NCBI GenBank assembly: GCA_030765845.1
Contig: JAVCDJ010000041.1
Span: 1-60,854, forward strand
Source of the DNA: Candidatus Stygibacter australis
Lineage (GTDB): Bacteria > Cloacimonadota > Cloacimonadia > Cloacimonadales > TCS61
Length of the DNA: 60,854 nt
Direction: 5' to 3'
The notes below the pieces were generated by a model, which had not been told where the DNA came from, did not search any database, and worked only from the letters and a program-made list of their open reading frames with translations. This document shows, piece by piece, positions 2,561-48,326 of the stretch (the first letter of the stretch is position 1; each line of letters starts with the position of its first letter). Both the position numbers and the translations under genes were made by a program.

Positions 2561-4462
2561 TTATCTTTGTAATTTTGGCATCTCGATCACAAATTCCACT
2601 CCATAATCACAATTATTCGCATTGATAGTGCCATTATATTTATTCTCTATTATTTGACGACAGATCTGCAAACCAATTCCAGTTCCTTCTTTCCCCCGGG
2701 TAGTAAAGTATGGCTCAAATATCTTCTCCAGGTTTTCGGGTTTTATATGATTCCCTTTATTATAAATTGTGATAGAAATCAGCTCTTTATTGCAGTTCAT
2801 TCTGATCCTGATCTCTGGAGCAATAATTTTATCCCGCATTATAGCTTCCCGGGCATTATTTATAATATTTATTATTACCTGATTTAATTCATTAGGATTT
2901 CCGCTCAATCTACAATTGCCATCCAGCTCTTTGATCAGACTAATGCCAATGCTTTTTAGCATATATGCCAATAGCTTCAGTGCTTTTTCTATTGTTTCAG
3001 CCACACTGTATTCCTGCACATAGTCAGGCTTGAAGAATTTACTGAAATCATTCACTGTCTCAGCCATATAATGAACCTGTTCACCTATCTGCTTCACCTG
3101 ATTATCCATGAATTCTTCATTAAGTTCATCAAAACGCCACGAATCATCAATTGCCTGCACCAGCACCCAGATAACATTTAAAGGCTGCTTCCACTGATGA
3201 GCAATTGCTGATATCATTCCTCCCATCATAGACATTCTTGATTGAGAGCTCAAAAGATCATCCTGAGCATTAACTCGTTCAACTACTTTCTCGAAGTCAT
3301 TCTGAAGCGATAAATAGGTGGTCTGCAAATCTGACAGTGACTCATTCAATTCTACTATCTGATTGCTCATTCCCTTATTTTTCTTATCTAATTCTGCAGT
3401 TTTCAGCTTATATATTTCTGTCTTATATTTCGTTTCAAGTTCTGCCAGTTTCTCATGATTACTTTCCTGAGTCAGTTCTTTATTGAGGTTAAATCTTTTA
3501 CGAAGATATTCATTTGCTGCCTGAAAATCACCCTTAGCCTCATGGTAACTGGAATAGCTGTTATGAACTGCTAATAAACTAAATTTCAGATCATGTGTTT
3601 CCCCAAGCTGTTTCGCTTCTTTTAAATATTCTTCAGCTTTAACCCAATCCTGACTATCGATATATAAATTTGCCAAAGAATTGCAGCATCTGCATAATTC
3701 ATTATACTGCTTTGTCTTATGATAAAATAAATATGCTTCCTTGAAATATTCCAGAGCCTTCTCAGAATCTCCAAGGTTTCTATGACAAAGGGCGATATTA
3801 TTCAAAGCTGTCGCTTTCATACTGATCCTGTCATTGTCCTGATAGAATTCCAGCGTCTTCATATTTACTGCTAAGGCTTCTTCAAATTTTCTTTGACCAT
3901 ATAATATATTGCTAATATTAAGTCTTATTGAATGCTGAGCCTCACTTCCCTTCTGTTCAGCAATCTCTAAGGCAAGATTTAGAAAATGATGCGCTTCATC
4001 CAGTTCCTCTTTTGCCAGATGAATTAATCCTAATCCATTATAACAGCTTAGTAAATCCATTAATGAATCGGTTTTGATCAGATACTCTAATGCCTTCAGC
4101 AGATTCTCCTGAGCGGTTGTCAGATCATCAAGACTAAATGCCAACCGCGCTTTCAGGTTATAGCTGTCTCCCATGGATTTATTATCACCATATTTTTGGC
4201 CTTTCTCAAAAAGCTGGTCACTCCAATAGATAACCTGATCAAAATCTGATTTATAGAAATAAGCGGTACAAATATAAGCTAATGCAACTGTTTCCAGATA
4301 ATTTTCCTGGTGGCTAAGGGCATATTCAAGCACTATTTTAGCTTGATTAGCACTTTCTTCTGCGTCTACCTGACGTAAATATAAACTGTATTCTAATATT
4401 TTATCTATTCGCTTCTTACCTTCACTACTTGATATCGCATCTAAAAATTTCTGCCTTTCCAT
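2561..4462 (-). CDS. Cytosolic TPR sensor histidine kinase (copy 2 of a tandem pair)
   Basis: This 633-residue paralogue of the next gene downstream has the same plan: N-terminal TPR repeats, coiled coil, phosphoacceptor AIAHQWKQPLN with His422, and a GHKL ATPase with N-box and the GTGIGLQI box. It differs from the downstream copy at about 16 of the last 262 shared positions, but diverges widely in the TPR half, which suggests different inputs feeding a common output. It ends three residues later (KLQR against a terminal N). A GGAG site sits just before the ATG. It follows a 48-codon basic gene by about 125 bp and is probably transcribed from that gene's promoter through both kinases. Signal and cognate regulator are unknown. 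Confidence 0.9.
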   Translation of the reverse strand: MERQKFLDAISSSEGKKRIDKILEYSLYLRQVDAEESANQAKIVLEYALSHQENYLETVALAYICTAYFYKSDFDQVIYWSDQLFEKGQKYGDNKSMGDSYNLKARLAFSLDDLTTAQENLLKALEYLIKTDSLMDLLSCYNGLGLIHLAKEELDEAHHFLNLALEIAEQKGSEAQHSIRLNISNILYGQRKFEEALAVNMKTLEFYQDNDRISMKATALNNIALCHRNLGDSEKALEYFKEAYLFYHKTKQYNELCRCCNSLANLYIDSQDWVKAEEYLKEAKQLGETHDLKFSLLAVHNSYSSYHEAKGDFQAANEYLRKRFNLNKELTQESNHEKLAELETKYKTEIYKLKTAELDKKNKGMSNQIVELNESLSDLQTTYLSLQNDFEKVVERVNAQDDLLSSQSRMSMMGGMISAIAHQWKQPLNVIWVLVQAIDDSWRFDELNEEFMDNQVKQIGEQVHYMAETVNDFSKFFKPDYVQEYSVAETIEKALKLLAYMLKSIGISLIKELDGNCRLSGNPNELNQVIINIINNAREAIMRDKIIAPEIRIRMNCNKELISITIYNKGNHIKPENLEKIFEPYFTTRGKEGTGIGLQICRQIIENKYNGTINANNCDYGVEFVIEMPKLQR

Positions 4463-5062: not shown

Positions 5063-7936
5063 CTATTTCAGCAAGAGTATCTTACTTGTAGCTGTCTGCT
5101 TACCAGATTTGATCCGACAGAAATATACGCCTGTGGTACAAGAGCGATTTTGTGAATCTTTCCCATCCCAGATAATAGAGTTAATTTTAGATTTTGTCCC
5201 GATTACATCGGGATGAATTATGAATGAGCGAATGCGCTGTCCTTTTGTATTGTATATACTAATCTCTGTGTTCTCTGTGCCCTTTGTGGTGAAAAAAGAA
5301 ATTGTTGTCTGCGGATTGAAAGGATTTGGGTAACAACTGATGGAAATAGATGCGGGAGCAAGCTCTATAGCATCAGAACCCTCATAGGGATAAATATAAG
5401 TGCGCATCATTATATTGCCATCATTGATTTCATCCCAAATATGTCCTCCTCCGGTGGTAATCCAGCTATTTCCAGCAGTATCTGTATCTTTGCCAATCGC
5501 AGACAGGTTTGAGAAATAGTGAATTGAAATGAAGAAACAATCACTTGTGTAATCCGGGATAGATACCGGAGAAAACTCAACCATATTCCAGCCAGCATGC
5601 AGGTTCTCCGCTTCTTCAATAAACAGACCGATCCTTTCACCTGGTAGTCCGGTACTGCCTTCCAGAATTTCAAATATAGTACGACCAATATCATGAGTTT
5701 CAATATAAAAATTTAATTGCGAGATTGATCTTGTATAATTAGCTGGGGGAGTAAATTTTACTGCCATATTTTGGCTAATTCCCACATATAATCCCTCTTC
5801 GCATGATCCGTCATCATAAGCCAGTTCCACGGCATCATCACTCAGCACATAAGCTCTGGCTTCATTGCTGAAGGCTCCATCTACGCTATCATACAAGGCA
5901 GTGACCACATAATAATTCCAGGACGAAGCAATTGGCTCTTCATCAAGAAAATAGGGAGTATCTATCATTTCACAAGCACCAATATTCTGATAATCCAGAC
6001 CACTTTCAGTTGATCTCCAGATATTATATCCGGTAATTTCACGTTCACGACTGTTTTGGGGGAACAGGGGCAAACGACGTTCTCCGGCTTCAATATAAGC
6101 ATGGATATTCCAATTGTAATCAAGACCATAACTGGATAATTCCTCCCAGTTACCTGGCACAAATGCAAAGTAATCTCCTTTTCCTATTACTGCTGGTCCT
6201 GCATCTGCTCCGGCAGTATTAGAAAATTCATCAATTGTCACTTCATACCCTATCCAGTACTCTGTATTGCTTTCAATCAGAATCGGTGTATCCAGATCAA
6301 TCAGGTTCCAGTTGTTTTCGTTAGGGGTATATGGTTGATTTACCAGCTCATTTTGTGCGTCAGGACCACTCCAGATATGAATTATCATTTCCTCTGGCAG
6401 ATCACCGGTGTAGAACTCAAGCTGAGTGATCTCTCCACCAATATAAGCCCTCATATCACCCGTATCAAAACGGGCTGCTGCATGCAAGGTTCCCCCAAAA
6501 TCAAGACCAATTGCATTATCATTAACACTATTATCCCATTGAATCCAGCCTTCACCTCCTCCTTCACTGAGAGCATCCCAGCTTAATTCCACCTGCTGGT
6601 CAGCATTTGTCACAGCGATCAGGTTTTGTGGTCCAGGTCCAAAATATATTTCCTGCTGGACCCTAAAATTATCAATTTTAAATCCACCGGGTACAACTTC
6701 ATTTTCTTCATTACTGAGCAGTATAAAGCGTAATTTCACGTTACATCCGGCATACTCAGATATATTGCTGTATTCAAGACCCCAATGTGGAAAAAAAGGC
6801 ACCCAGGTTTCAGAATTTCCTGTAAAGGCAAAACCTTCGATGTCTGGACTACCCTGTGGATAAGAAATCAGGTACCAGTTTGACCAGTCCTCTCCAGGTA
6901 TCTGGTAACACTTTTTTACCATTAAATAGTCACAATCCGGAAAAGTACTGTCATCATCAAGCATCAGTTTTATATCTAAATCCCAGAAGAAGTTTCCATT
7001 TGCAGGCAAATAGAATGCCGGAGTAGTAATGCTATTATACATTCCGGGCAGGTAAGTATCGGTTTCTTCATCAAAGCATCCCATGGCATGAGTGGGACTG
7101 GGAGCTTCGCTGTCTTCATAAATATGCCAGAGATCTCCTGTACTGGTTGCGCCATATTCGGCAACCATTTCACTATCTCCAGAAGCTCCATCACCATTGG
7201 ATTCAAAAATCCCCGTAGCAGTATCAATTGCTATATCATCAAGCCTGAATCCGAACATACTGGCATCATCTGCCGTATTATAGTTATCATCAGAGGCAAA
7301 GGCAAAACGTATTTTCACACTTTCTCCCGCATAAGCGTCTAAATTAAATACTGCTTCTGTCCAATTTACCCACTCCGTGGTGCTGCCCCAGCCGGGAACA
7401 CCTTGACCTTCACCAAATCCTACTCCAAATGAAAAGAAACTTACTTCATTATATTCCGGCGAACCAGCCAGAACTGACCAGTTTTCTCCTCCATCAGTGG
7501 AAATACGCACATTAGCTCCGTCCCAGGCATTGTATCCTGCTCCTCCTCCTCCCGTATCCTGGCAGCATAAGCTGAACCAGAAATGCAATTCAGGATTATC
7601 CTCTGCCAAAATCAATTCTGGAGTATTTAATACCAGATAGCGATGATCAGTATAACCACCCAATTCTTCGTCACCCATCCACCAGGAATTACCCTCATAA
7701 GCTCCCGTCGTACTTAAATGCCAGAATTCTATCCCGTGCGATATTCCAGTTGCATCAAAAGTTTCCCAGCCTTCAGCTCCGTTCTCAAAATCTTCACTAA
7801 AAAGCGTAATAAAATCCCGCGATACATTATACTTACTATGCAGCTGATTTCTCTTTGCTAATTCTAATTCATTTCCCATGCCAGCAAAAAGAATAGCTGA
7901 AATAATTATTAACAGTAATACAACATAAATTTTCAT
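5063..7936 (-). CDS. Secreted multidomain protein with C-terminal sorting (T9SS/FlgD-like) domain
   Basis: This 957-residue protein begins with a signal peptide (MKIYVVLLLIIISAILFAG). I place the start at the ATG at 7936, which has AGAGG before it, rather than at an upstream GTG. The body holds beta-sandwich modules of the MAM/choice-of-anchor type (FSEDFENGAEGWETFD and a second similar unit). A fibronectin type III-like pair follows (PQNLIAVTNADQQVELSWD, then ITGYNIWRS). The C-terminus is a typical sorting/FlgD Ig-like domain with YPNPFNPQTTISF, an IYNTKGQ strand, a TGVYF strand and a short basic-hydrophobic end. The family knowledge points to export across the outer membrane and surface attachment or release. 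No catalytic motif is evident, so the role is unknown; adhesion or a structural role is plausible. Confidence 0.85.
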   Translation of the reverse strand: MKIYVVLLLIIISAILFAGMGNELELAKRNQLHSKYNVSRDFITLFSEDFENGAEGWETFDATGISHGIEFWHLSTTGAYEGNSWWMGDEELGGYTDHRYLVLNTPELILAEDNPELHFWFSLCCQDTGGGGAGYNAWDGANVRISTDGGENWSVLAGSPEYNEVSFFSFGVGFGEGQGVPGWGSTTEWVNWTEAVFNLDAYAGESVKIRFAFASDDNYNTADDASMFGFRLDDIAIDTATGIFESNGDGASGDSEMVAEYGATSTGDLWHIYEDSEAPSPTHAMGCFDEETDTYLPGMYNSITTPAFYLPANGNFFWDLDIKLMLDDDSTFPDCDYLMVKKCYQIPGEDWSNWYLISYPQGSPDIEGFAFTGNSETWVPFFPHWGLEYSNISEYAGCNVKLRFILLSNEENEVVPGGFKIDNFRVQQEIYFGPGPQNLIAVTNADQQVELSWDALSEGGGEGWIQWDNSVNDNAIGLDFGGTLHAAARFDTGDMRAYIGGEITQLEFYTGDLPEEMIIHIWSGPDAQNELVNQPYTPNENNWNLIDLDTPILIESNTEYWIGYEVTIDEFSNTAGADAGPAVIGKGDYFAFVPGNWEELSSYGLDYNWNIHAYIEAGERRLPLFPQNSREREITGYNIWRSTESGLDYQNIGACEMIDTPYFLDEEPIASSWNYYVVTALYDSVDGAFSNEARAYVLSDDAVELAYDDGSCEEGLYVGISQNMAVKFTPPANYTRSISQLNFYIETHDIGRTIFEILEGSTGLPGERIGLFIEEAENLHAGWNMVEFSPVSIPDYTSDCFFISIHYFSNLSAIGKDTDTAGNSWITTGGGHIWDEINDGNIMMRTYIYPYEGSDAIELAPASISISCYPNPFNPQTTISFFTTKGTENTEISIYNTKGQRIRSFIIHPDVIGTKSKINSIIWDGKDSQNRSCTTGVYFCRIKSGKQTATSKILLLK

Positions 7937-7984
7937 AATAACCTCTCTAAATAGCACAAATACTAACTTTTTTATCCAAAGTAA

Positions 7985-8267: not shown

Positions 8268-11200
8268 ATGGCAAAAGATAATATAGAAAAATCAACGGCA
8301 CTGATCAGGAATCTGGAAGAAACGCAGAAGGGCAGTCAAACCTTACCCAAGGATTATCAATGGCTGCTGGATCTATCAATTGGCAAAAAGGGAATAAATG
8401 AGCGTTGCCGGACTTTACTGGATGAATATTATCATCGCTATTCCAATCATAAAGTGGTAACAGAAGACCTGGTGCAGGTGGCATTGAGCGATCTGTGGTT
8501 TTATGATCAATGCGCAGAACGTGACCAGGCATTTAAATTGATCCTGGCAATTTTCTCTAATCTCTTACAACAGTATATTGATACTGGGATACTGGACAGG
8601 CTGATGCAAACACTGATCCGTTTTGCCGGTAAACTTGCAGAGCAGGATAATCCATGTATGTCAGCAATAAATGAGTGCCTGGAGCTAATCAAAAATATAT
8701 ATCAAAGCGATCCTTATATTGTAGAGCGGAACAGCACTTATATCAAAAACCACTTTAAGGTGGTTTATGAGATAGGGGAAATTGGCGAAAGTTGTGTTAG
8801 TTATTGCCGTGAAATACTTCAGGGTGTTTATGCGAGGTGGTTTGAACTGCCTGAGCTGGAAGTATGGTATGCGGAAAAGAAGCAGTTATTTGGGAGTGAT
8901 TATAGCGATTTAATCAGAGGTATGGGCAGGGAATATATAAAGAGTCAGCGAGACCAGTTAATAAAAATTGATAACTGGGAAGAACTAAGCAAACTGGCGT
9001 TTTTTGGAGATATTGCCCAGAAATACCGCAGTATGATAACGAAATTCAATACCAGTCAGGAGAAAATATATTATATTTTATATCTCTTTAAGCTGGAAGA
9101 TATGTATCAGATGCGCAAAAGCTTACTTATGGATTTGAACAGGATCATGCGAAAAGTGGGAGAAGAGATCCAGGCCAAGGAGATGAAAAAATTCACGGTT
9201 GAGATATTTGGTCTATTTAAGGAATTAAAGGATAAGTATCGGGAAACCGTTCTGGATAGTACCTTATCGTTGGGGAAAACGATATTGGGATTAAAGGATC
9301 ATGATCTAACCCACAAATTTATAGATTTAGTGATAGAACTGGGATTTGTGTCACCGCAGGGTATGAAAATAGATAAAGAGTGGCAGGTGGTGATAGACAG
9401 TAATCATATCAAGAATATCAGAATCTGGCTACAACTTGTGGAACTTGATCCAATCAGGATGAACCGGTTATTAAGTGCCTTGATAGTGAATCTGCGGATC
9501 GGTGGGATATTTGTTTCAGATACTGATCTTTTTCAGAAGGATATTTCCTGGTTCCTGAATGGAAAAGTGCAAGCGATTTTTAAGCAGGTGAAACAATTAG
9601 CCCGGCTGTTCCCCATATATTATAATAAGATCGGAGCTGAGGGCGAATTACGGGAATTAACCACAGCCATAGATGAAATTGGCAGACGCCAGGACAGACT
9701 GATGCACTTTTTCAGGAAACAGGTGCACACAGAAAGCAATAATACCAATGTTAATCTGGCATGTAATATCCTGATATACTGGGAGACTGGAGCTATAGCA
9801 CCAATGGAATCTGCTCTACCGGCAGATGTGCTGAAATTTCTGGATACCAGTAGCGAATATTACATTCATAATCATGAACTGGTGGAACTGCTCAGCAATG
9901 AATATGATTGTGATGTGATAGGATTGACGAAGCTGAATCAGCGTAAACTGGAACAATCAATTGAAGAGCATACTCAAATACCAAAAATATATCGTAAAAA
10001 AGTATTCTACCTGATCAGGATCTATAATATTCTGGTAGAAAAATATAGTTTTGGAATTACAGATTTGAATAAAACCCTGAGCAGGAGTCACTTTTTTAAT
10101 AAAGCAGAGATAGACGATCTGCTGCACCTTTTGAATTCTAATAAAAATGAGGAAGCACTGGGAAAATTATTTCTAATGATGAAGAAGCTGATGGGAGTGA
10201 TATTTGCCGAGGGAAAAACGGAAGCAAGAGAGGATATATATTATAAACGGCATGTTGCAGCGGGAATACCATCAATGTATGGTGAATACAGTGAGCCGAG
10301 GTTTGATGCCCTGGGATTGATATTCCGTCTGGAAAAAATAGCTAAAATCCTGCTGGAAGAGATAGAAGCCAGTGTGGATCTTAAGTATTTGACCCATAAA
10401 ACTTTGAAGCGGGTTTACCGATTATTAAGGCTATATGAGACCGGACTTGAGATGGATGGCATCAGCAATCCAGGATTCAGTTCTAATCTGGAGATGTTCC
10501 ATTACAGTCTGGAATCCAGTTTCACTCTCGATCAATACCAGAACTTAGTTCAGTTTCTGGCAGAAAACACCAAAGAGATCGTAAAGGAATATTTTTACCG
10601 GATATATGAGCAGCCTTTGAAAGAGATCACACATCAATATATTGATACGGAAGATAAAGAAGAAATATTAAAGCAGTCAGATAAGCTTTCTGAGCAGTTT
10701 TATCGTGATCTGCTCACTTCGGCATTCATAATCCAGAAACTTGATAATTTCATTATGACACTTTTGAAATCTATTCGTGATGTTGTGCAGGATTATGAAA
10801 AGCATCATTTGCCCCTGCTCATGAGCTATGAACCTGATCAGATAGTGAGTCCGCTCTATTTATTAACACCTGAACTGGATAATCCCATATTTCTGGGTTC
10901 TAAGGCGTATTTTTTGAAAGTTATGCTCAGCAAGGGTTTTCCTATCCCACCGGGCTTTGTATTATCTACTGAGCTTTTCCGTCATCGACCTTTGGTATTA
11001 AGACCGGGAGTACTTCGAGATGATATTTTGTTCAAAATCCGTAAACAAGTTAGTAGATTACAGAAACTTACAGGTAGAATTTATGGAGAACCATCTAATC
11101 CACTATTATTGAGTGTGCGATCAGGAACTGCAATTTCCATGCCCGGAGCTATGAACACTTTCCTGAATGTGGGTATGAATGATGAGATTGCCGAAGAGAT

Positions 11201-12368
11201 GAGCAAACAGGAAAATATGGGCTGGACAGCCTGGGATTCTTACCGTCGTCTTTTGCAAAGCTGGGGAATGGCACAACAAATCAAACGTGATGAATTTGAT
11301 GATATTATTCAAGGCTATAAAGAAGAATTTGGCATTGAAATGAAGCAGAATCTGAGCAAAGATCAGATGAAAACCATTGCTAAAGCCTATAAACAGAAAA
11401 TCCTGGATTGTGGAAAAAAATTCATTGATGATCCTTATGAACAATTAACTGGGGCGATCGGCTATGTGCTGGATAGCTGGGATTCCAAACGAGCACTGGT
11501 TTATCGGGAACAAATGCAGATAGCAAATGAATGGGGGACAGCAGTAGTAGTCCAGCAGATGGTGCTGGGTAATATGAGCGAAAATTCCGGTACAGGGGTG
11601 CTTTTTACTCATGATCCATCAAGTAATCAACCGGGCTTGAAACTTTATGGTGAATATACAGTGTGCAGCCAGGGAGAAGATATTGTGGCAGGATTGGTGA
11701 ACGTTTTGCCTTTGACAAGCAATCAGGCAAAAATCGCCGGAAATGACGGAAGTGAAAGTCTGGAAGCAAAATTACCTTTGATCTATAATCGCTTGAATGA
11801 ATTAGCGGCTCAGATGATCTATGAGCATGGGTTTAGCCATCAGGAGATAGAATTTACTTTTGAATCTGACCAGCCGGAAGGATTATATATATTACAGACC
11901 CGTAATCAGGATATCCAGACTAAACAGGATTTTGAAATATTTTCTCAAAAACGTGAAGAAATGGAATTTGCCGGAAGCGGAATCGGAATTGGCGGTGGAG
12001 CCCTGAACGGGATACTGGCATTTGATGATGAAGACCTACAGAAATACCGGGAGCAATATCCTGATAAGGCGATGATCCTGGTTCGTCCTGACACGGTACC
12101 AGATGATATTGGAATGATTTTTAAGTGTGATGGCTTGATAACCGGCAGAGGTGGAGCAACTTCTCATGCAGCAGTTACGGCAGTGCGTTTGGGAATTGTG
12201 TGCATAGTAAATTGTAAGCAATTAGAAGTTGATGAAGATAATAAATGCTGCAAAATCAATGACAAGAAACTTCGAAGTGGTGATGAAGTAGCAATTGACG
12301 GTCATTTTGGAAGTATCTTTGTTGGGAATTATGATGTTCATACTGAGCGGATGGCATATCAGGGATAG
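8268..12368 (+). CDS. PEP-synthase/PPDK-like dikinase with a large novel N-terminal region and no PEP/pyruvate barrel
   Basis: This 1366-residue protein has two recognisable parts. From about residue 878 runs a pyruvate phosphate dikinase-type ATP-grasp domain (GSKAYFLKVMLSKGFPIPPG, then SVRSGTAISMPGAMNTFLN and ILQTRNQ). The last 180 residues are the swivelling phosphohistidine domain with TGRGGATSHAAV, catalytic His near 1300. The TIM-barrel that binds PEP or pyruvate in true PPDK and PEP synthase is absent; the protein ends about 66 residues after the histidine. Residues 1-870 are helical, cytosolic and unrecognised. Known relatives without the barrel (rifampicin phosphotransferase, glucan-water dikinase) pass the beta-phosphate of ATP to another acceptor, so this is probably a dikinase for an unknown substrate. 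A GGGA site precedes the ATG, and the GAPDH gene follows 72 bp downstream. Confidence 0.8.
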   Translation: MAKDNIEKSTALIRNLEETQKGSQTLPKDYQWLLDLSIGKKGINERCRTLLDEYYHRYSNHKVVTEDLVQVALSDLWFYDQCAERDQAFKLILAIFSNLLQQYIDTGILDRLMQTLIRFAGKLAEQDNPCMSAINECLELIKNIYQSDPYIVERNSTYIKNHFKVVYEIGEIGESCVSYCREILQGVYARWFELPELEVWYAEKKQLFGSDYSDLIRGMGREYIKSQRDQLIKIDNWEELSKLAFFGDIAQKYRSMITKFNTSQEKIYYILYLFKLEDMYQMRKSLLMDLNRIMRKVGEEIQAKEMKKFTVEIFGLFKELKDKYRETVLDSTLSLGKTILGLKDHDLTHKFIDLVIELGFVSPQGMKIDKEWQVVIDSNHIKNIRIWLQLVELDPIRMNRLLSALIVNLRIGGIFVSDTDLFQKDISWFLNGKVQAIFKQVKQLARLFPIYYNKIGAEGELRELTTAIDEIGRRQDRLMHFFRKQVHTESNNTNVNLACNILIYWETGAIAPMESALPADVLKFLDTSSEYYIHNHELVELLSNEYDCDVIGLTKLNQRKLEQSIEEHTQIPKIYRKKVFYLIRIYNILVEKYSFGITDLNKTLSRSHFFNKAEIDDLLHLLNSNKNEEALGKLFLMMKKLMGVIFAEGKTEAREDIYYKRHVAAGIPSMYGEYSEPRFDALGLIFRLEKIAKILLEEIEASVDLKYLTHKTLKRVYRLLRLYETGLEMDGISNPGFSSNLEMFHYSLESSFTLDQYQNLVQFLAENTKEIVKEYFYRIYEQPLKEITHQYIDTEDKEEILKQSDKLSEQFYRDLLTSAFIIQKLDNFIMTLLKSIRDVVQDYEKHHLPLLMSYEPDQIVSPLYLLTPELDNPIFLGSKAYFLKVMLSKGFPIPPGFVLSTELFRHRPLVLRPGVLRDDILFKIRKQVSRLQKLTGRIYGEPSNPLLLSVRSGTAISMPGAMNTFLNVGMNDEIAEEMSKQENMGWTAWDSYRRLLQSWGMAQQIKRDEFDDIIQGYKEEFGIEMKQNLSKDQMKTIAKAYKQKILDCGKKFIDDPYEQLTGAIGYVLDSWDSKRALVYREQMQIANEWGTAVVVQQMVLGNMSENSGTGVLFTHDPSSNQPGLKLYGEYTVCSQGEDIVAGLVNVLPLTSNQAKIAGNDGSESLEAKLPLIYNRLNELAAQMIYEHGFSHQEIEFTFESDQPEGLYILQTRNQDIQTKQDFEIFSQKREEMEFAGSGIGIGGGALNGILAFDDEDLQKYREQYPDKAMILVRPDTVPDDIGMIFKCDGLITGRGGATSHAAVTAVRLGIVCIVNCKQLEVDEDNKCCKINDKKLRSGDEVAIDGHFGSIFVGNYDVHTERMAYQG

Positions 12369-12440
12369 GATAATTATTGACAGGAAGTAATAGTATAGCA
12401 ATAAATAGATATAAAAAATAAAACATTAAGGAGAATTCTG

Positions 12441-13673
12441 ATGGAAAATATCTTAGGAATCAATGGGCTTGGCAGAATCGGTAAACTAACCTTATGGAAC
12501 CATATCGCCCTTGGTCACTTTGACGGATTTGTTGTTAATGTTGGCAGGGAAGTGGGGAATAGCCTGGAAGATCTGATCAATACACTTGAATCTGATTCTA
12601 CTTATGGGCATATTGACAGGTTCATTTACGGAGTTTCTGGCAAAAAAGTGGAATTTAAAATCATAGACCGGGAAACGGGGTTTATAACCGTAAACGGTAA
12701 ACAATTGAAAATCCTACGCAATGCCCGTAATCCTCTGGATATACCCTGGGCAGAAGAGAATGTCCGGCTGGTGGTGGACTGTACGGGAGTCTTTTTAGAT
12801 CCCACAGTAACAGCAGATGATCCCAGGGGCAGCGTACGGGGGCATCTGGAAGCTGGAGCAGAGAAAGTTATCTGTTCAGCACCCTTTAAGATCAAAAATA
12901 AGGCATTAAATATGCCGGATGACAGTAAATTATTTGTTTATGGTGTAAATCATCATGATTATGACCCGGGCCATCATAATGTCCTTTCTGCCGCAAGCTG
13001 CACAACTACGGGACTTGCTCACATGATGATGCCTCTTCTGGAAAATGAAGCATCATCTCAAATTGTTACTGCTTCTATGTCTACTATCCATGCTTCCACC
13101 AATACACAAAGTATCCTGGACAGCGTTCCTAAAAGCGGGGCTAAAGACCTGAGAAAAAACCGCTCAATAATGAATAATATTATCTTAACATCTACTGGGG
13201 CGGCAAAAGCTTTGGAACAGATCTTACCCCAGATCAAAGATATCGGATTTATGGCAGATTCAGTAAGGATACCCACTAATACAGTATCAATGATCAGCCT
13301 GAATATTACTTTCCATGAGCATGTGAATGATGCTTCGGAACCCGTAATAACCGGTGATTATTTGAATAATATCTATTCTGAGGCTGCTGATGGGAAACAG
13401 AAGGGACTGCTTGTGTACAGTGAGCGTCAGAATGTTTCCAGTGATTTGATCGGTATCAGAGCAGCAGCCGTTATTGAAGGGCATGATACCCACACCAGAA
13501 CCGGATTTATGAAATTATCCTCTCAGATGCTTAATGAATTGGGGCTGGATTCTACTGATAATATTTCCATGCCTGTAACTCATGCTAAAATATTTGGCTG
13601 GTATGATAATGAGTTTGGCAGTTATGTGAATATGCTTGGCAAACTCACAATCCATGTAGATGAAAATATGTAG
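12441..13673 (+). CDS. gap: Divergent glyceraldehyde-3-phosphate dehydrogenase
   Basis: This is a GAPDH-family oxidoreductase of 410 residues against the usual 330-340. The Rossmann start INGLGRIGK, VDCTGVF, SAPFK, the active-site block SAASCTTT (Cys187), the catalytic His217 in STIHA, STGAAKAL and the end motif WYDNEFGSY are all visible. Deviations from the common enzyme are SAASCTTT for SNASCTTN, a VVNVGRE segment where most NAD-dependent enzymes have an acidic residue after the second strand, and extra length before the catalytic core and around residues 325-370. It should convert glyceraldehyde 3-phosphate to 1,3-bisphosphoglycerate in glycolysis, but cofactor preference and exact substrate are uncertain. 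AAGGAG lies before the ATG. It follows the dikinase-like gene closely, and a terminator comes later, just before nadC. Confidence 0.85.
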   Translation: MENILGINGLGRIGKLTLWNHIALGHFDGFVVNVGREVGNSLEDLINTLESDSTYGHIDRFIYGVSGKKVEFKIIDRETGFITVNGKQLKILRNARNPLDIPWAEENVRLVVDCTGVFLDPTVTADDPRGSVRGHLEAGAEKVICSAPFKIKNKALNMPDDSKLFVYGVNHHDYDPGHHNVLSAASCTTTGLAHMMMPLLENEASSQIVTASMSTIHASTNTQSILDSVPKSGAKDLRKNRSIMNNIILTSTGAAKALEQILPQIKDIGFMADSVRIPTNTVSMISLNITFHEHVNDASEPVITGDYLNNIYSEAADGKQKGLLVYSERQNVSSDLIGIRAAAVIEGHDTHTRTGFMKLSSQMLNELGLDSTDNISMPVTHAKIFGWYDNEFGSYVNMLGKLTIHVDENM

Positions 13674-13804: not shown

Positions 13805-13933
13805 ATGGTGTTTAATTCCGAGGATAAGACGGGAATAATGAAGAAAGTAGAGAGCTCTGAACAAGCTCTTGAAAACATAAAAATAAAAGCATTCACTCTC
13901 AAGGTGGATGCTTTTTTTGTTGGTGAGAAATGA
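13805..13933 (+). CDS. Possible 42-residue leader peptide before nadC
   Basis: A short frame (starts MVFNSEDKTGIMKKVE, ends FFVGEK) has AAGGGA upstream of its ATG and ends in an ATGA overlap with the nadC start codon. Its last third runs straight through the terminator hairpin at 13885-13918. It resembles nothing I know. It may be a leader whose translation affects termination or restarts at nadC, or it may be chance. Confidence 0.25.
   Translation: MVFNSEDKTGIMKKVESSEQALENIKIKAFTLKVDAFFVGEK
13885..13918 (+). terminator. Rho-independent terminator between gap and nadC
   Basis: AAAAGCATTCAC pairs with GTGGATGCTTTT (12 bp with one G-U) around a seven-base loop, followed by a run of T. It ends about 12 bases before the nadC start, close enough to act as an attenuator for nadC as well as the end of the gap transcript. 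Confidence 0.7.
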
Positions 13934-15892: not shown

Positions 15893-17617
15893 ATGCAGAA
15901 AAGATGGAAAATTGCTGATACATTGACAGCAGCAGAGATTGAAGCACAGAAACATATTACTGAAGAGATGAAGTGCCCTGAAATGATAGCAGAAATGCTC
16001 ATCAGGCGCGGCTTAAGAACACAAGAAGAAATAGGGTTATTCTTTCAGCCGGAATTAAAATCTATTCATGACCCCTTCCTGTTCAGGGATATGGAAAAAG
16101 CAGCTCTCAGGGTTGTAAAAGCTATCAATGATAACGAATTGATTACTATATACGGAGATTATGATGTAGATGGAACCACATCAACCTCTCTTCTCTATCT
16201 GGGTCTTAAGAAAATGAATGCCAGGGTGGATTATTACATCCCTCATAGAATGATAGATGGGTATGGATTATCCATTTCTGGAGTTGATCGGTTAAAAGAA
16301 AATGGAACTTCCCTGATCATCAGCGTTGATTGCGGAATAAACTCTATTAATGAAGTGGAAACTATCAATGAATTGGGAATGGATATCATCATTACTGATC
16401 ATCATAATCCCAAAGAGCAATTACCCCGGGCTTATGCAATCATCAATCCCAAGCTGCCAGGTAGTAAATATCCCTGTCTGGAACTGGCAGGTGTTGGCGT
16501 AGCCTATAAAATGCTCATGGCAGTATATATCAAGCTGGGTGTGGATACTCATGAAATGTGCAATAAGTATCTTGATCTTGTAGCACTGGGTACAATCGCA
16601 GATATCGTCCCACTGGTGGGAGAGAACAGGATATTTGCTTCCATAGGTCTTGAAAGACTTATCAAGAAACAGAATATTGGCTTAAATGCTTTGATCAATC
16701 TTGCAGGGTTAACTGAGAAAACATTAAATGCCAGTGATATTGTATTTGGCATTGCCCCCAGGATCAATGCTGCCGGCAGGATGGGTACAGCACTCACTGC
16801 TGTAAAGCTAATGGTATCTATTGATGAAAAGGAAAGCCGGGAGCTGGCACAGCAGATCGAGCACCAAAATTCTCTGCGACAGCAGATTGATCAGCGAACC
16901 TATAATGAAGCCTGCCAGATAATTGAAGAAAAATACAAAAATATGGATGAAACACTGTTCATAGTGATTTCATCTGATGAATGGCATCCAGGAGTGATCG
17001 GTATTGTTGCCTCCAAACTGGTGGAGAAGTATTACCGTCCGGCGGTGATGATCTCATTCAAAGATGGGATTGGCAGTGGATCTGGACGTAGTATTGCAGA
17101 TTTTGATCTCTTTGAAGCCCTTACTCATGTTGAGGACTGTCTTGATACTTTTGGTGGACATAAGTATGCTGCAGGTTTATCTATTATGGCAGAATATCTG
17201 GATACATTTGAAAATCAGATCACTAAATACATGAAATCCAGGATTTCTCCTGACCTGCTGCTACCTCCTCTGAAGATAGATTCCAAATTGGAATTATATG
17301 AGATAAATGAGAATTTGCTGGAATGGCTTAACCGGTTTGCTCCCTTTGGACCCGGTAATATGAAACCTGTTTTCTTTACTACCCTGGTCACGATTGTGGG
17401 TTATCCCTATTGTGTGGGGAAAAACCATCTAAAATTAAAAGTAATGAAAGATGGTTGTGAATTAGACCTGATCGGATTTAACCTGGGTGATTACCTGCCC
17501 TTCCTGAAGAAAGGTGAAAAAATCGATATCGCCTATTCTCTGGAATTTAATACCTGGCAGGGAAGAACCAGTATCCAGGGAAAATTGAAAGACCTGCATT
17601 TTGAGAAAGATATTTAA
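15893..17617 (+). CDS. recJ: Single-stranded-DNA-specific 5'-3' exonuclease RecJ
   Basis: A DHH-family nuclease for recombination and mismatch repair, 574 residues, the normal size. The metal motifs are clear: GDYDVDGTT (residues 88-96), the VDCGINS segment, ITDHHNP, and a third block LVALGTIADIVPL. The DHHA1 domain has EWHPGVIGIVASKLVEKYYRPA, GSGSGRSI and GGHKYAAGLS, and a C-terminal OB-like domain follows. The start ATG has TAGGAAT upstream, 26 bp after rnpB. The end overlaps the following lipoprotein gene by 17 bases. Confidence 0.97.
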   Translation: MQKRWKIADTLTAAEIEAQKHITEEMKCPEMIAEMLIRRGLRTQEEIGLFFQPELKSIHDPFLFRDMEKAALRVVKAINDNELITIYGDYDVDGTTSTSLLYLGLKKMNARVDYYIPHRMIDGYGLSISGVDRLKENGTSLIISVDCGINSINEVETINELGMDIIITDHHNPKEQLPRAYAIINPKLPGSKYPCLELAGVGVAYKMLMAVYIKLGVDTHEMCNKYLDLVALGTIADIVPLVGENRIFASIGLERLIKKQNIGLNALINLAGLTEKTLNASDIVFGIAPRINAAGRMGTALTAVKLMVSIDEKESRELAQQIEHQNSLRQQIDQRTYNEACQIIEEKYKNMDETLFIVISSDEWHPGVIGIVASKLVEKYYRPAVMISFKDGIGSGSGRSIADFDLFEALTHVEDCLDTFGGHKYAAGLSIMAEYLDTFENQITKYMKSRISPDLLLPPLKIDSKLELYEINENLLEWLNRFAPFGPGNMKPVFFTTLVTIVGYPYCVGKNHLKLKVMKDGCELDLIGFNLGDYLPFLKKGEKIDIAYSLEFNTWQGRTSIQGKLKDLHFEKDI

Positions 17618-18416
17618 TTTACTAATTCTGAGTACCCTTTTTGCCTGTTCAATCAATACGGGCACAAAAAATCTTCAACCGGTGGAATTCACTGAGATAT
17701 TTGCTTTAAAAACTGATATTAAGATCGAAAAAGCGTGTTATAATTCCATCGAGCAGGTAATATATATCTGGGAATCCAATACAGATAAAATCCACATTTT
17801 TAAAGACGGCAAAGAAATAAATACCATTGGTGGAAAGGGATTTGACAAAATCAGTTTTCAGAAACTGGCTGATATTTGCCTGGCACCTGATGGTGACCTT
17901 TTTGCTCTGGATAGCTATGATAACAGTTTGAAGAAATTTAATAAAGCCGGAAAAATGACGGGGAAAATGCAAATAAACAGCAATCTTGATCCTCAATTGG
18001 TGGTTATTGCCCTTGACCAGAAAATTTATATTTATGATGATAAACGCAATGAAATTGTTGTCCTGGATTATAAGGGCAATGAAATAGCTACCTGGGGAAA
18101 TCTGCAATTTGGCGATATTGCCAGTCTCGAATTATATAATGACCTTCTGGCTGTATATGACCTTGAGAATGATCAAACTTACTTTTTCAGCACTTATGGA
18201 CAGTTAGTAGATCAGCATCCCGGACACTGCTATCTGGAGAATGATCAATTATACAGCGTTAAAAGATATTACCTGGAGCATCAGAAGAATATGACAAAAT
18301 TTGCTGTAAACACAAATCCATGGCAAAAAGTTTTCTTCCAGGCACCTGAGATTATCTTATATGATGGGAAAAAACTAATCTTAGGAAAAATTAGATATGA
18401 AAAATATTCAAATTAA
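17601..18416 (+). CDS. Lipoprotein, probable beta-propeller
   Basis: This 271-residue protein starts with TTG inside the recJ end. It carries a lipoprotein signal (RKIFNLLILSTLFAC) whose lipobox LFAC predicts lipidation of Cys17 and periplasmic anchoring. The rest shows repeating strand units with Asp/Gly turns, such as ICLAPDGDLFALDSYDNSLKKFNKAGKM and IALDQKIYIYDDKRNEIVVLDYKGNE, typical of NHL-like or 6-bladed beta-propellers. No enzyme motif is seen. It overlaps recJ by 17 bases and lnt by 20, so it is co-translated with the enzyme that would complete its acylation. The specific role is unknown. Confidence 0.65.
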   Translation: MRKIFNLLILSTLFACSINTGTKNLQPVEFTEIFALKTDIKIEKACYNSIEQVIYIWESNTDKIHIFKDGKEINTIGGKGFDKISFQKLADICLAPDGDLFALDSYDNSLKKFNKAGKMTGKMQINSNLDPQLVVIALDQKIYIYDDKRNEIVVLDYKGNEIATWGNLQFGDIASLELYNDLLAVYDLENDQTYFFSTYGQLVDQHPGHCYLENDQLYSVKRYYLEHQKNMTKFAVNTNPWQKVFFQAPEIILYDGKKLILGKIRYEKYSN

Positions 18417-19928: not shown

Positions 19929-20408
19929 ATGCCTAAGCATTACTATCTCATAGGAGAAGTCGCCAAAATGCTTGGTATTAAAAAGCATACTCTCCGTTAC
20001 TGGGAAGCTGAATTTCCTAAGCTGAGACCTAAAAAAAATAACAGCGGAAAACGGAATTATACCCTTGAAGATATAGAAACTATCAAAACTATTAAATATT
20101 TACTTCATGTGCAAAACTTCAGCATCGAAGGTGCCAGAAAAAAAATGTCATCTCATAGTCCTGTGCCTGAAAATGAACAAATAGAAATCAGCATACCTCC
20201 CAGAGAAATCAAAACCATACTCACTTCCAGAATTGAAAAAATCCAGGATATTATCAGTTTGCCTCCCAGATCCTTACAGAAATTTGAAAAAAAGAAAGAA
20301 TTAAAAGCCAAACTCGGTCAGCTTAGAGCTCTCCTTTCCCAAAAAGAAGAGAAGCAGGAATTGGATCCTGCTTCTACTAATTCTTCCAGTTCGATTAATT
20401 CTGATTAA
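19929..20408 (+). CDS. MerR-family transcriptional regulator
   Basis: This 159-residue protein has an N-terminal winged helix of the MerR type (YLIGEVAKMLGIKKHTLRYWEAEFP, listed here only as far as its WEAEFP hallmark, then RNYTLEDIETIKTIKYLL). It lacks the Cys ligands of metal sensors and has a basic C-terminal tail. The form resembles the small MerR proteins found next to translation and division genes, whose targets are mostly unknown. GGAAGGAG precedes the ATG. Its stop overlaps the stop of the convergent Spy-like gene by four bases, leaving no room for a separate terminator. Confidence 0.85.
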   Translation: MPKHYYLIGEVAKMLGIKKHTLRYWEAEFPKLRPKKNNSGKRNYTLEDIETIKTIKYLLHVQNFSIEGARKKMSSHSPVPENEQIEISIPPREIKTILTSRIEKIQDIISLPPRSLQKFEKKKELKAKLGQLRALLSQKEEKQELDPASTNSSSSINSD

Positions 20409-20980
20409 TCGTCGTCATCCATTTCATCATCATCGTCATCCATCATTCTGTTTCTCTGATGTCCCATTCCCTTCTTCTCACTCATTTTTTCCTGCATCAT
20501 CTTTCGGGGATGTTTCATCAGTTCCATTGCCTGCTCTTTTTGTTCAGCAGTTAAGAGATTCCAGCATTTTTCCTGATTATCTATATGCTTGTTTTTCAAT
20601 TCTTTCTTTAGATCAAAGATGTTATTACTAACTTTTTTTATCTGAGAAAAATTCATTTCTTTCATGGCTACTTGTGCGTCTATTTCCAAAATCTTGATCT
20701 GGGCATTGAACTCGATAGCTGTTTTCTGCATTTTGACATGCTGATCTTCCAATTGTTCCTGCTGATCTTCTGTTAATTCCAGTTGATGCATGATCATCAT
20801 CATTCTATCGCCTGGGTTTCCCTTTCCCTGCATTCCCATTCGGCCTTTATCCATCATGCCCATTCTTCCATTATCTCTGCCTTGTCCTTTCTGACAGTCC
20901 ATTCCCTGGTTAAAGTGATTCTGAGCAAATACTGCGGTTGCTATCAGCAGTATTGCGGCAATTACGAGTAACTTCTTCAT
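20405..20980 (-). CDS. Periplasmic Spy/CpxP-like (LTXXQ) protein, Met- and Asp-rich
   Basis: This 191-residue exported protein (signal MKKLLVIAAILLIATAVFAQ) contains two LTxxQ motifs, LTEDQ and LTAEQ, in a helical core as in the Spy/CpxP/ZraP family of envelope chaperones. A Met-rich stretch (GRMGMMDKGRMGMQGKG) precedes the core and the end is nearly all Asp (DDDDDEMDDDD), features suited to binding metal. It overlaps the upstream gene by four bases and is last in a four-gene unit led by an ECF sigma factor. Its likely job is periplasmic chaperone or metal buffer in an envelope-stress regulon (inference). Confidence 0.7.
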   Translation of the reverse strand: MKKLLVIAAILLIATAVFAQNHFNQGMDCQKGQGRDNGRMGMMDKGRMGMQGKGNPGDRMMMIMHQLELTEDQQEQLEDQHVKMQKTAIEFNAQIKILEIDAQVAMKEMNFSQIKKVSNNIFDLKKELKNKHIDNQEKCWNLLTAEQKEQAMELMKHPRKMMQEKMSEKKGMGHQRNRMMDDDDDEMDDDD

Positions 20981-27335: not shown

Positions 27336-27429
27336 AGTTAATCTACTATATGAAACCGGTTACGAAGTAGTTATATTAATCTTTGCTAATGAAAAGGTTG
27401 TTTATATAGTAAAATAATTGGAGGGAAAA

Positions 27430-30400
27430 ATGAAAAAATTGATTACAATTACCATATTTGTAATCTTGATTTCTACTGTTTATAGTCTCTATGCAGTTCC
27501 AGTCTCAGATGGATTCGATTATCCTGTTGGTTATCCAGATGGAGATGGATACAATACAACCGCTGGATGGGGATGGTTGGAATTGACAGATGAGGAAGTA
27601 TATCATCCTGCGAATGATTTTAATGGAAATGGAGGTAGTGATACAGATTTAGGAGATCCTGTTTATGCTGCATCGCATGGTACTGTTGTTGAGCTTGGTA
27701 ACTACGGAACTGGATGGGGTAATATTATATTAGTTGAGCATTTGTTACCTGATGGGACGCAAATATGGACTCAATATGCCCATTTGCAAGATATATTTGT
27801 TTCAGTTGGTGAAAATGTGGTAAAAAATCAAACAATCGGAACCATTGGAAAAGGATATAATAATGAATATTGGGCACATCTACATTTTGAAGTGCTGAAA
27901 GTATATCGTAGCCCTTCAGCGTGGGTGACTGGATGGACAACTGATGAGATCAATCAAAGTTACTACGAGCCTACCGCTTTTATAGATAAAAATAGAGATT
28001 TAAGGGATGTGCCTATTCTTAATGAACCTGCTGATCAGGCAGAATTCAATAAAGGTGAAAATGATATTCTCTTTGATTGGACTGATGTATCAGGAGCTTC
28101 ATATTATGAAATATGGATTGATAATAATGAAGGTTTTGGTTCACCGGCTATAGGATTTAATAATGGAAATAATGACTGGATTGCTGAGGGATTTACAAGT
28201 CAAAGCAGTTTCAATTTGACAACCTCTCTGCAAAACCAGCTTGATCAGAATTTATACTATTGGAAAGTTTGGATAGTGAATAGCAATCAGGTTCCTATCA
28301 CAGGGGATTGGTCGGATGTAAGGCAATTTACCTTATTTGTTCCACTCGATGAACCTACCCTTATCGAACCTGCTGATCAAGCGGAGTTCAATAAAGGTGA
28401 AAATGATATTCTCTTTGATTGGACTGATGTATCAGGAGCTTCATATTATGAAATATGGATTGATAATAATGAAGGTTTTGGTTCACCGGCTATAGGATTT
28501 AATAATCAAAATAATGACTGGATTGCTGAGGGATTTACCAGTCAAAGCAGTTTCAATTTGACAACCTCTCTGCAAAACCAATTTGATCAGAATTTATACT
28601 ATTGGAAAGTTTGGATAGTGAATAGCAATCAGGTTCCAGTTACAGGGGAATGGTCAGATATACGAGAGTTTTATTTGTTGAATCAACCCAATGCACCTAC
28701 CCTTATCGAGCCTGCTGATCAAGCGGAGTTTAATAAAGGTGAAAATGACATACTCTTTGATTGGACTGATATATCAGGAGCTTCGTATTATGAAATTTTG
28801 ATTGATAATAATGATGGTTTTGTTTCCCCGGCTATAGGCTTTAATAATGACAGTGGAGATTGGTTAGCAAATGGAATAGTAACAAGTAGTCAGTTTACAC
28901 TGAGTATAGCACTGCAAAATCAGTTAAGTCAGAACACATACTTTTGGCAGGTACACGCTTTAGATTCTAATCAATTGCCTATTTATGATTGGTCTGCTTA
29001 CCGAGAATTTGATTTACTTGATATTCTTCTTCCAGAAATCAAATTAATTGCCTCGGATGGAACGGTAAATGATAAGTTTGGGGGTTCCGTATCAATTTCA
29101 GGTGATAATGTCCTGATCGGTGCTTATTGGGATGACGATAATGGCTCTAACTCCGGATCAGCTTATATATATAATTATGATGGCACATCCTGGGTAGAGC
29201 AGCAAAAACTCACGGCATCGGATGGAGATACAGGTGATCGTTTTGGGGCTACCGTATCAATTTCAGGTGATTATGCCCTGATTGGTGCTTATTTTGATGA
29301 CGATAACGGAGATAATTCAGGCTCTTTATACGTCTATCATTATAATGGCACATCCTGGGTAGAGCAACAAAAACTTACGCCATCGGATGGATATGCAGGT
29401 GATTATTTTGGGCATTTCGTATCAATTTCAGGAGATTATGCCCTGATCGGTGCTTCTGGTGATAACGATAATGGCAATAGAACCGGATCAGCATATATCT
29501 ACTATTATAATGGTGCAGAATGGGTAGAGCAGCAAAAGATAACGGCATCGGATGGAAATGAATGGGATGAATTTGGGGATAAGGTATCAATTTCAGGAGA
29601 TTTTGCACTGATTGGTGCTAATAAAGATGACGATTATGGCTCTTGTTCCGGATCAGCTTATATTTTCCATTATAATGGTACAGAATGGGTAGAACAGCAA
29701 AAACTCACGGCATCGGATAGTGATGTTGATGATCATTTTGGGAATTCCGTATCAATTTCAGGTGATCATGCCCTGATCGGTGCTTGGGGGGATGACGATC
29801 ACGGTGATTGGTCTGGATCAGCTTATATATACAATTATAATGGTGCAGAATGGGTAGAGCAGCAAAAACTTACAGCTTCAAATGGAGATGAAAGTGATCG
29901 TTTTGGATGTTCCGTATCACTTTTAGAAGATTATATTCTGATTGGTGCTAGTTGGGATGAAGATAACGGCAATTATTCCGGATCAGCTTATATCTTCCAT
30001 TATAATGGTGCAGAATGGGTAGAGCAGCAAAAAATCACAGCATCGGATGGTGGTGTTGAAGACTGGTTTGGGGGCCATGTATCACTTTCAGGAGATTATG
30101 CCCTGGTCGGAGCTTCTGGAGATGGTGCCGGATCAGCTTATATATACAATTATAATGATAGTGGCAATACTTTGCAGGCAGATTTCACAGCAGATCAAAC
30201 AAATATAACATTAGGTGATGCAATACTGTTCACTGACTTATCTACTGGTGACCCAGTTAGCTGGGCATGGGATTTTGAGAATGATGGAGTAATTGACAGT
30301 AATGTTCAGGATCCAATATTTACTTATCCGGAACCTGGAGTTTACAGCGTGAGTCTTACTATCAGTAATGAAGAGCAACGTGATAGCGATACAGAAGTCA

Positions 30401-47351: not shown

Positions 47352-48326
47352 ATGAAAGAGATATTAAAAGAGCATTTGGAGTCAGGGGTAGTACAATTAT
47401 CTGATAGTGCCGGTATCGTGGCATTTTTTGGTGATGGTAAGATGCTGATGTGTGCGATGACGAGTGATATATCAGCATACCTGGCAGTATATTTTGGTGA
47501 TGATATCGATGATAAGAACATCGGTGAATTATTAGAGCAATGCGATAAAATAGGCTACTGGGAGACTGATAGGATATTTTCAGCATTACTGGGATATAAA
47601 GCCCTTGAGCAGAAGTATAATCCACCTTTTAATCGAATAATAAGATATTATGATGATTATCAATACCTGGGATTAAATTTCGTAAAAATACCCTTTATCA
47701 AAGTAGAAAGCACAACAATAAATGACTTTTTTTATATTGGGCCTTTCAGGAGCCGTTATTTTGTACATGATGTGATAGATGCCTCTGCGGAATATTTTAA
47801 AACGCCGTCCTGTCCAGGAGACTCCTTTCCCTGCGAATTACTTGAAGCGAAAAAATGCACGGGATACTGCATCCAGAATCAAGAGCAGCTGGCAGCGGAT
47901 CTAACAAAGTATTTTCTGCAGCCAAAACAAGAGAATCTGGATATACTCACTAAGGAAATTGATACTTTACTGGATGGTTTTTTATTCACCAAAGCAGAAG
48001 CAGTGAAGCATCAGAAGAAATTATTAAGTAATTTTTATCATCAGGTTGCTTTTCTAATAGTTACCAAGCATTTGAATTTAAAATATGAATATGATGGCAA
48101 AAACATAGAGATAGCTAATGGTTTGCTCAAGCGGATAGATGGCAGAATACTGGAGCGTGTAAACCAGAAATATCAGTTAAATGAATTATTTGCTATAGAT
48201 AAATCTGAGCTGGATGAGAGATGGGTGATCTATAATGAAGTGAGTAGCAAAATACCTGAAAAACTGCTTGAGTGTTATGAAACCACACAGCAGCAGTTGA
48301 GTAAATATTTGTTAAATAAGGAATAG
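47352..48326 (+). CDS. UvrC-like protein with a degenerate GIY-YIG domain
   Basis: A 324-residue protein that resembles the N-terminal part of UvrC: QKYNPPFNRIIRYYDDYQYL (compare the QPRYN and DDKSYP segments), FYIGPFRSRYFVHDVID, and a Cys cluster CPGDSFPC with KKCTGYCI. The catalytic Glu of GIY-YIG nucleases falls on a Tyr in my alignment (ALLGYKALEQ), and the usual GIY and YIG strands are not preserved, so nuclease activity is doubtful. Residues 200 to the end are helical. It is followed after two bases by a response regulator. A role in nucleic-acid binding or DNA-damage signalling is possible but not shown. Confidence 0.55.
   Translation: MKEILKEHLESGVVQLSDSAGIVAFFGDGKMLMCAMTSDISAYLAVYFGDDIDDKNIGELLEQCDKIGYWETDRIFSALLGYKALEQKYNPPFNRIIRYYDDYQYLGLNFVKIPFIKVESTTINDFFYIGPFRSRYFVHDVIDASAEYFKTPSCPGDSFPCELLEAKKCTGYCIQNQEQLAADLTKYFLQPKQENLDILTKEIDTLLDGFLFTKAEAVKHQKKLLSNFYHQVAFLIVTKHLNLKYEYDGKNIEIANGLLKRIDGRILERVNQKYQLNELFAIDKSELDERWVIYNEVSSKIPEKLLECYETTQQQLSKYLLNKE

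Follow-up and report, generated by a model that had tools for sequence, protein, structure and literature searches.

What does a dikinase phosphorylate when it carries the catalytic half of pyruvate phosphate dikinase (PPDK) without the phosphoenolpyruvate (PEP)/pyruvate barrel? The question is raised by an open reading frame (ORF) at positions 8268..12368 (plus strand) of contig JAVCDJ010000041.1 from Candidatus Stygibacter australis (Cloacimonadota). The window that we analyzed comprises the 60,854 nucleotides of this stretch. From an ATG start, the ORF encodes a barrel-less PPDK-type dikinase of 1366 aa, for which an original prediction, made from the letters and translations, had suggested a new acceptor. 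The strongest clue to its function is the adjacency of a glyceraldehyde-3-phosphate dehydrogenase (GAPDH) gene. Tentatively, we propose an AMP-forming dikinase whose helical N-terminal domain would bind a metabolite from the step that GAPDH catalyzes, with 3-phosphoglycerate/1,3-bisphosphoglycerate as the most likely pair.

A PPDK-Type Catalytic Half

Only two Pfam families match the ORF, PPDK_N (residues 923-1145, E 1e-27) and PEP-utilizers (1267-1346, E 2e-17). The C-terminal PEP/pyruvate TIM barrel, PF02896, was not found in it by Pfam, and the chain ends 66 residues past His1300, in agreement with the barrel-less, early-ending protein originally predicted. Among solved structures, C. symbiosum PPDK comes closest, with residues 875-1214 and 1233-1360 aligned to it (PDB, E 4e-77). 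These two regions correspond to the PPDK-type ATP-grasp nucleotide-binding domain (10890..11909, plus strand) and the phosphohistidine (swivel) domain (11964..12347, plus strand). The latter contains the GGATSHAA motif with the predicted phospho-carrier His1300, the equivalent of PPDK His455 (codon at 12165..12167, plus strand).

The PDB alignment to C. symbiosum PPDK was also used to place PPDK residues on 81 near-full-length homologues from many phyla. In our protein, K879, R951, R994, G1110, E1195, Q1210, and R1212 correspond to PPDK K22, R92, R135, G254, E323, Q335, and R337, and these residues together with H455 are kept in essentially all 81 homologues; the His1300 column is histidine in all 79 homologues that cover it. 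PPDK D321 is always replaced by Glu, and T253 is either Thr or Ser. We take the roles of these residues to be those generally known for PPDK. Thus, the predicted ATP-grasp and phosphohistidine domains are both present, with an intact half-site.

Sequence scores place this half with PPDK (E 1e-112 in NCBIfam and 4e-77 in PDB) and not with PEP synthase (3e-17 and 1e-12, respectively) or rifampin phosphotransferase, whose model NF041857 yields 24.8 bits vs. 999, with the ATP-grasp alone matching. However, the protein scores 377.7 bits against the TIGR01828 equivalog cut-off of 843.45 (NCBIfam). Because of this score and the absent barrel, we classify it by sequence as dikinase-like in its working, yet not a PPDK. 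A frameshifted or truncated PPDK is ruled out, since the 81 homologues have the same length and ending (median 1365 aa, terminating about 63 residues past the His) and an ordinary complete PPDK is encoded on another contig of the same genome. A barrel acting in trans, which the original prediction had named among the findings that would refute it, is ruled out as well: elsewhere in the genome, PF02896 occurs only in this full PPDK and in a full enzyme-I-like protein, and no separate barrel protein was found.

The family is widespread. Among 40 relatives scanned, 11 genomes besides the source contain full-length or nearly full-length homologues, and one more homologue is split over two contigs; ordinary PPDK was matched in essentially all 40. 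A scan of genome_contigs with the single sequence gave no match, whereas an alignment of the N-terminal region matched more than 570 stretches. The best 80 of these, from which the lineages were named, belong to Bacillota, Bacteroidota, Desulfo-/Geobacter-type bacteria, Calditrichota, Cloacimonadota, Chloroflexi, Ignavibacteria, and others. A search for a plasmid relative found none. The distribution is patchy, with the dikinase present in 37 of 75 Cloacimonadota genomes and, within a Bacteroidales order, in 8 of 119. In every homologue, the helical domain is fused ahead of the dikinase half.

The N-terminal Helical Region

Residues 1-870 (8268..10877, plus strand) match no Pfam family above the cut-off in any of 12 homologues, and a profile of these 12 sequences retrieved nothing credible from PDB; the region of about 870 residues is thus as unrecognized as the original prediction had described it. 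AlphaFold2, run with a 12-row alignment, models it as all-helical (mean pLDDT 84) apart from one beta hairpin, the loop of which has low confidence. The structure prediction proposed earlier gave a confident helical model, but one that resembles only generic HEAT-type solenoids in Foldseek, with a TM score below 0.2 at the top. An analogy with starch- or glucan-binding dikinases, also raised earlier, is not supported by this all-helical model, and no carbohydrate-binding family is among the Pfam matches of the ORF and the 12 homologues. The starch- or glucan-binding module that would mark an alpha-glucan water dikinase was thus not found in the N-terminal part.

Two cores within this region match the ATP-grasp domain in conservation (0.72-0.84), most other N-terminal parts being lower, down to 0.3. 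The first core, residues 380-510 (9405..9797, plus strand; GGIFVSDTDLFQKD...IGAEGELR...HFFRKQVHTESNN), has a column conservation of 0.72-0.79 and contains the invariant or nearly invariant H380, R385, D418, D420, K442, E458, R462, H480, R483, K484, H487, and E489. The second core, residues 655-690 (10230..10337, plus strand; EDIYYKRHVAAGIPSMYGEY...), forms the beta hairpin of the model. It includes the most conserved bin of the whole protein (residues 661-690, 0.84 per column), and here K660, R661, H662, and the loop IPSMYG (GIPSMYG) are invariant or nearly so. Because the conservation equals that of the catalytic domains and the invariant residues are Arg, Lys, His, Asp, and Glu, both cores are a candidate substrate site; they resemble a site that binds a small, charged, and probably phosphorylated molecule. 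The earlier suggestion of a new acceptor, perhaps bound N-terminally, thus agrees with the conservation as far as the site is concerned, whereas that such an acceptor exists is something we infer.

Linkage to GAPDH

Directly downstream of the dikinase gene is the GAPDH gene noted in the original prediction (12441..13673, plus strand), which encodes a 410-aa protein assigned by alignment and tree to a clade of about 415 aa. The two genes are separated by 72 bp that include a ribosome-binding-site-like AAGGAG (12428..12433, plus strand) and no terminator-like site on the plus strand. A terminator-like hairpin follows at 13885..13915 (plus strand), a consensus match of a type whose number is near the chance expectation. 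The dikinase and GAPDH genes probably constitute a two-gene operon ending at this hairpin.

The gene-neighbor survey that had been suggested turned this adjacency into the main clue. Of 88 distinct loci, 67 have a GAPDH gene no more than 300 bp from the dikinase; among the 73 loci in which sequence is available to both sides, the count is 62. Three arrangements, involving three GAPDH groups, occur: a same-strand downstream gene (56 loci), nearly always of about 415 aa; a same-strand upstream gene of about 335 aa (16 loci), often with overlapping ends; and a divergently oriented upstream gene of canonical appearance (7 loci). In 11 loci, the dikinase is flanked by GAPDH on both sides. Other neighbors are lineage-specific, such as HydE/HydF-type maturases, transporters, LepA, and nadC.

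The linkage extends to the distribution across genomes. Among 75 Cloacimonadota genomes with a completeness of 90% or more, the dikinase and the 415-aa GAPDH are both present in 36 and both absent in 37, and one genome each has the dikinase or the GAPDH alone; the dikinase of the former (G080) is a fragment, and the GAPDH gene of the latter (G079) is situated at a contig start. In the Bacteroidales order (119 genomes), the 415-aa GAPDH (59-64% identity) is found in five genomes, and all five have the dikinase. Three further genomes have the dikinase without this GAPDH, two of them with another GAPDH nearby on the same contig. The associated p-values (Fisher p 4e-19 in Cloacimonadota and hypergeometric p 3e-7 in Bacteroidales) ignore shared descent, so the association is at most as strong as they indicate. 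From these counts it follows that the dependence is one-way: the 415-aa GAPDH depends on the dikinase, and the dikinase can pair with another GAPDH. Protein distances of the dikinase and the 415-aa GAPDH correlate with r 0.84, to which shared descent contributes as well, compared with 0.90 for the dikinase's own two halves.

The 415-aa GAPDHs form one separate branch (100% SH-aLRT). The copy in the window is divergent, scoring 311.9 bits with TIGR01534, under the cut-off of 367. In the alignment, the clade keeps the catalytic Cys of SCTT, the His, and the phosphate/substrate-binding Arg, and has inserts and altered surroundings of the substrate site (HAATNNQ vs. HSYTNDQ). The NAD-type Asp32, kept in 30 of 30 canonical proteins, is gone in 55 of 55 members, and an invariant Gly-Arg follows its position (N-V-G-R in the partner here). 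Asp32 of GAPDH hydrogen-bonds the 2'-OH of the NAD+ ribose (PMC3728087); because this residue is lost, the 415-aa GAPDH likely prefers NADP(H).

A separate observation concerns the upstream GAPDH variant of about 335 aa, found in Bacteroidales and others (e.g., loci L075, L022, and L107). Several copies have HPxTNNQ, and one (L058) has an altered active site, GTCTGNC. The gene often overlaps the dikinase start, resulting in GAPDH-dikinase-GAPDH trios.

Proposed Reaction and Its Alternatives

In the proposed mechanism, ATP (with phosphate, Pi, or water) would phosphorylate His1300, releasing AMP and pyrophosphate (PPi) or Pi. The His domain would then swing to a basic pocket of residues ~380-510 and 655-690, where the phosphoryl group would pass to or from the metabolite that GAPDH makes or uses. 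The pair 3-phosphoglycerate/1,3-bisphosphoglycerate is the most likely one, which would create a second route beside phosphoglycerate kinase (PGK), at the cost (or saving) of two ATP phosphate bonds where PGK uses one. The 415-aa GAPDH, possibly with a preference for NADP(H), would perform the redox step. By general thermodynamics, ATP cleavage to AMP favors formation of 1,3-bisphosphoglycerate more than PGK does. On such energetic grounds the gluconeogenic direction seems preferable; the shifted equilibrium would help energy-poor anaerobes to run gluconeogenesis, a role that an NADPH-linked GAPDH would suit. The broader picture, a new 3-phosphoglycerate (1,3-bisphosphoglycerate) dikinase that, with a dedicated NADP-type GAPDH, would constitute a PGK-independent branch of mid-glycolysis/gluconeogenesis in many anaerobic phyla and contain a new acceptor fold, is possible, if somewhat doubtful.

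Gene context also points to 3-phosphoglycerate in five Bacillota/Calditrichota loci, where the pair is then followed by a 2-hydroxyacid dehydrogenase of the SerA (phosphoglycerate dehydrogenase) type, confirmed for L042 by the SerA-specific intervening and ACT domains. Since canonical GAPDH and PGK are both nearly always present in dikinase genomes, the dikinase/GAPDH pair represents an added route, and a general replacement of PGK is ruled out. In four drafts with the dikinase (G071 and G075 from Cloacimonadota, G101, and G049), we found no canonical GAPDH and no PGK, only the 415-aa GAPDH. Here the pair might stand in for both enzymes; incomplete assembly is an equally possible reason.

Several observations weigh against a phosphoglycerate dikinase. 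PGK is encoded in 48 of 50 and 33 of 37 dikinase genomes in two surveys, and hence no pathway gap requires the proposed step. Eleven loci have no adjacent GAPDH: six from Acetobacterium, with unrelated neighbors, which are the main exception to the linkage, and five others. The identity of the acceptor is read solely from gene context, and contact between His1300 and the helical domain is a prediction of the mechanism.

In an independent observation, second, divergent GAPDH and PGK genes were found side by side in Acetobacterium and other dikinase-carrying Bacillota (G042:C33, G043:C26, G041:C17, and G044:C9 and C71).

The divergence of the 415-aa GAPDH leads to the first alternative: another small acceptor, such as a carboxylate, a sugar phosphate, or an aldehyde hydrate, would be phosphorylated to yield an unusual substrate for this enzyme in place of 1,3-bisphosphoglycerate. 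The inserts and the changed substrate-site residues are in line with such a substrate, as is the presence of canonical GAPDH and PGK already in the same genomes. At the same time, the clade retains the catalytic Cys and His and the phosphate-binding Arg, and the canonical-looking GAPDH beside the dikinase in some lineages argues for an ordinary substrate. We consider this alternative rather unlikely.

The solenoid model allows a different role for the N-terminal region, namely, docking of a protein. The dikinase would then be a regulatory histidine kinase that phosphorylates GAPDH or another protein and so tunes flux through the GAPDH step. A precedent is the PPDK-derived VadK of M. tuberculosis, which autophosphorylates, binds enzymes of the methylcitrate cycle, and is reported to be regulatory (PMC13400623). 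The adjacency of three different GAPDH groups, including canonical-looking ones, is also consistent with a regulatory kinase. However, conservation concentrated in two short charged stretches and the GIPSMYG loop resembles a metabolite-binding site more than a surface for docking, and the 415-aa GAPDH occurs without the dikinase only once in two surveys, at a contig end, which suggests a shared reaction and not the control of an enzyme already there. Regulation of this kind is thus improbable.

Least probable is an ATP-making direction (1,3-bisphosphoglycerate + AMP + PPi -> 3-phosphoglycerate + ATP + Pi), which would conserve the energy of PPi in anaerobes in the way that PPDK does at the pyruvate step. 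In its favor, the Pi-site residues of PPDK type (R135, T/S253, G254, and R337) are kept, the hosts named in the genome_contigs scan are mostly anaerobes, and PPDK was matched in essentially all 40 relatives scanned. However, the Pi-site residues do not firmly tell Pi users from water users, and a partner GAPDH that likely prefers NADP better suits an anabolic role.

Comparison with Known Dikinases

Like PPDK (TIGR01828), the protein combines an ATP-grasp with a swivel His domain and keeps all checked ATP-/Pi-site residues, with one D to E replacement. It differs from PPDK in lacking the PEP/pyruvate barrel, in the 870-residue helical region ahead, and in a shortened linker between the ATP-grasp and His domains. 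Another PPDK derivative with a new role is VadK (Rv1127c) of M. tuberculosis, a protein of about 490 aa. It is reported as a regulatory kinase, and the abstract of that report mentions no such N-terminal domain (PMC13400623).

Rifampin phosphotransferase (RPH) likewise joins ATP-grasp and swivel His domains to a non-barrel acceptor domain and uses a swivelling mechanism (PMC4844700). In RPH, however, the acceptor (RIF-binding) domain is smaller and located between the ATP-grasp and His domains, the ATP-grasp is PEPS-like, and RPH has no sequence match to the N-terminal region described here. The two-component aromatic dikinases HpeHI, CreHI, and PpsAB also feed a specific pathway through a different acceptor (PMC12167813); unlike our protein, they consist of two proteins, act on phenolic acceptors, and are of the RPH rather than the PPDK type. 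As far as we found, neither the N-terminal domain nor the GAPDH partner is common to any of RPH, HpeHI/CreHI/PpsAB, and VadK. On the GAPDH side, the gluconeogenic GapB type is similarly an extra GAPDH besides the canonical one. The 415-aa clade differs from it by branching separately, by the loss of Asp32, and by a distribution that depends on the dikinase. Our literature search covered open-access full texts and found no description there of a dikinase that acts at phosphoglycerate or has GAPDH as its partner.

Few steps in biology are as conserved as that of GAPDH/PGK. An enzyme family that occurs widely and is tied to GAPDH in several phyla, and of which family models recognize only the PPDK half, points to an overlooked reaction at this step. 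The dikinase may be an unrecognized step of central sugar metabolism, and it could change the energy and redox accounts of acetogens, syntrophs, and other anaerobes.

Other Genes of the Window

Four ORFs of 191-324 aa have no Pfam match at E 1e-4: 17601-18416 (plus strand), 20405-20980 (minus strand), 47352-48326 (plus strand), and 48752-49675 (plus strand). Two tandem genes of equal build on the minus strand (614-2506 and 2561-4462) each encode tetratricopeptide (TPR) repeats and a histidine kinase, probably as a result of duplication. The gene at 5063-7957 (minus strand) encodes a secreted protein that has a MAM domain and, at its C-terminus, a sorting domain for type IX secretion. A giant protein of 2412 aa (27418-34656, plus strand) combines an M23 peptidase, 14 FG-GAP_2 repeats, PKD domains, and a C-terminal dockerin.

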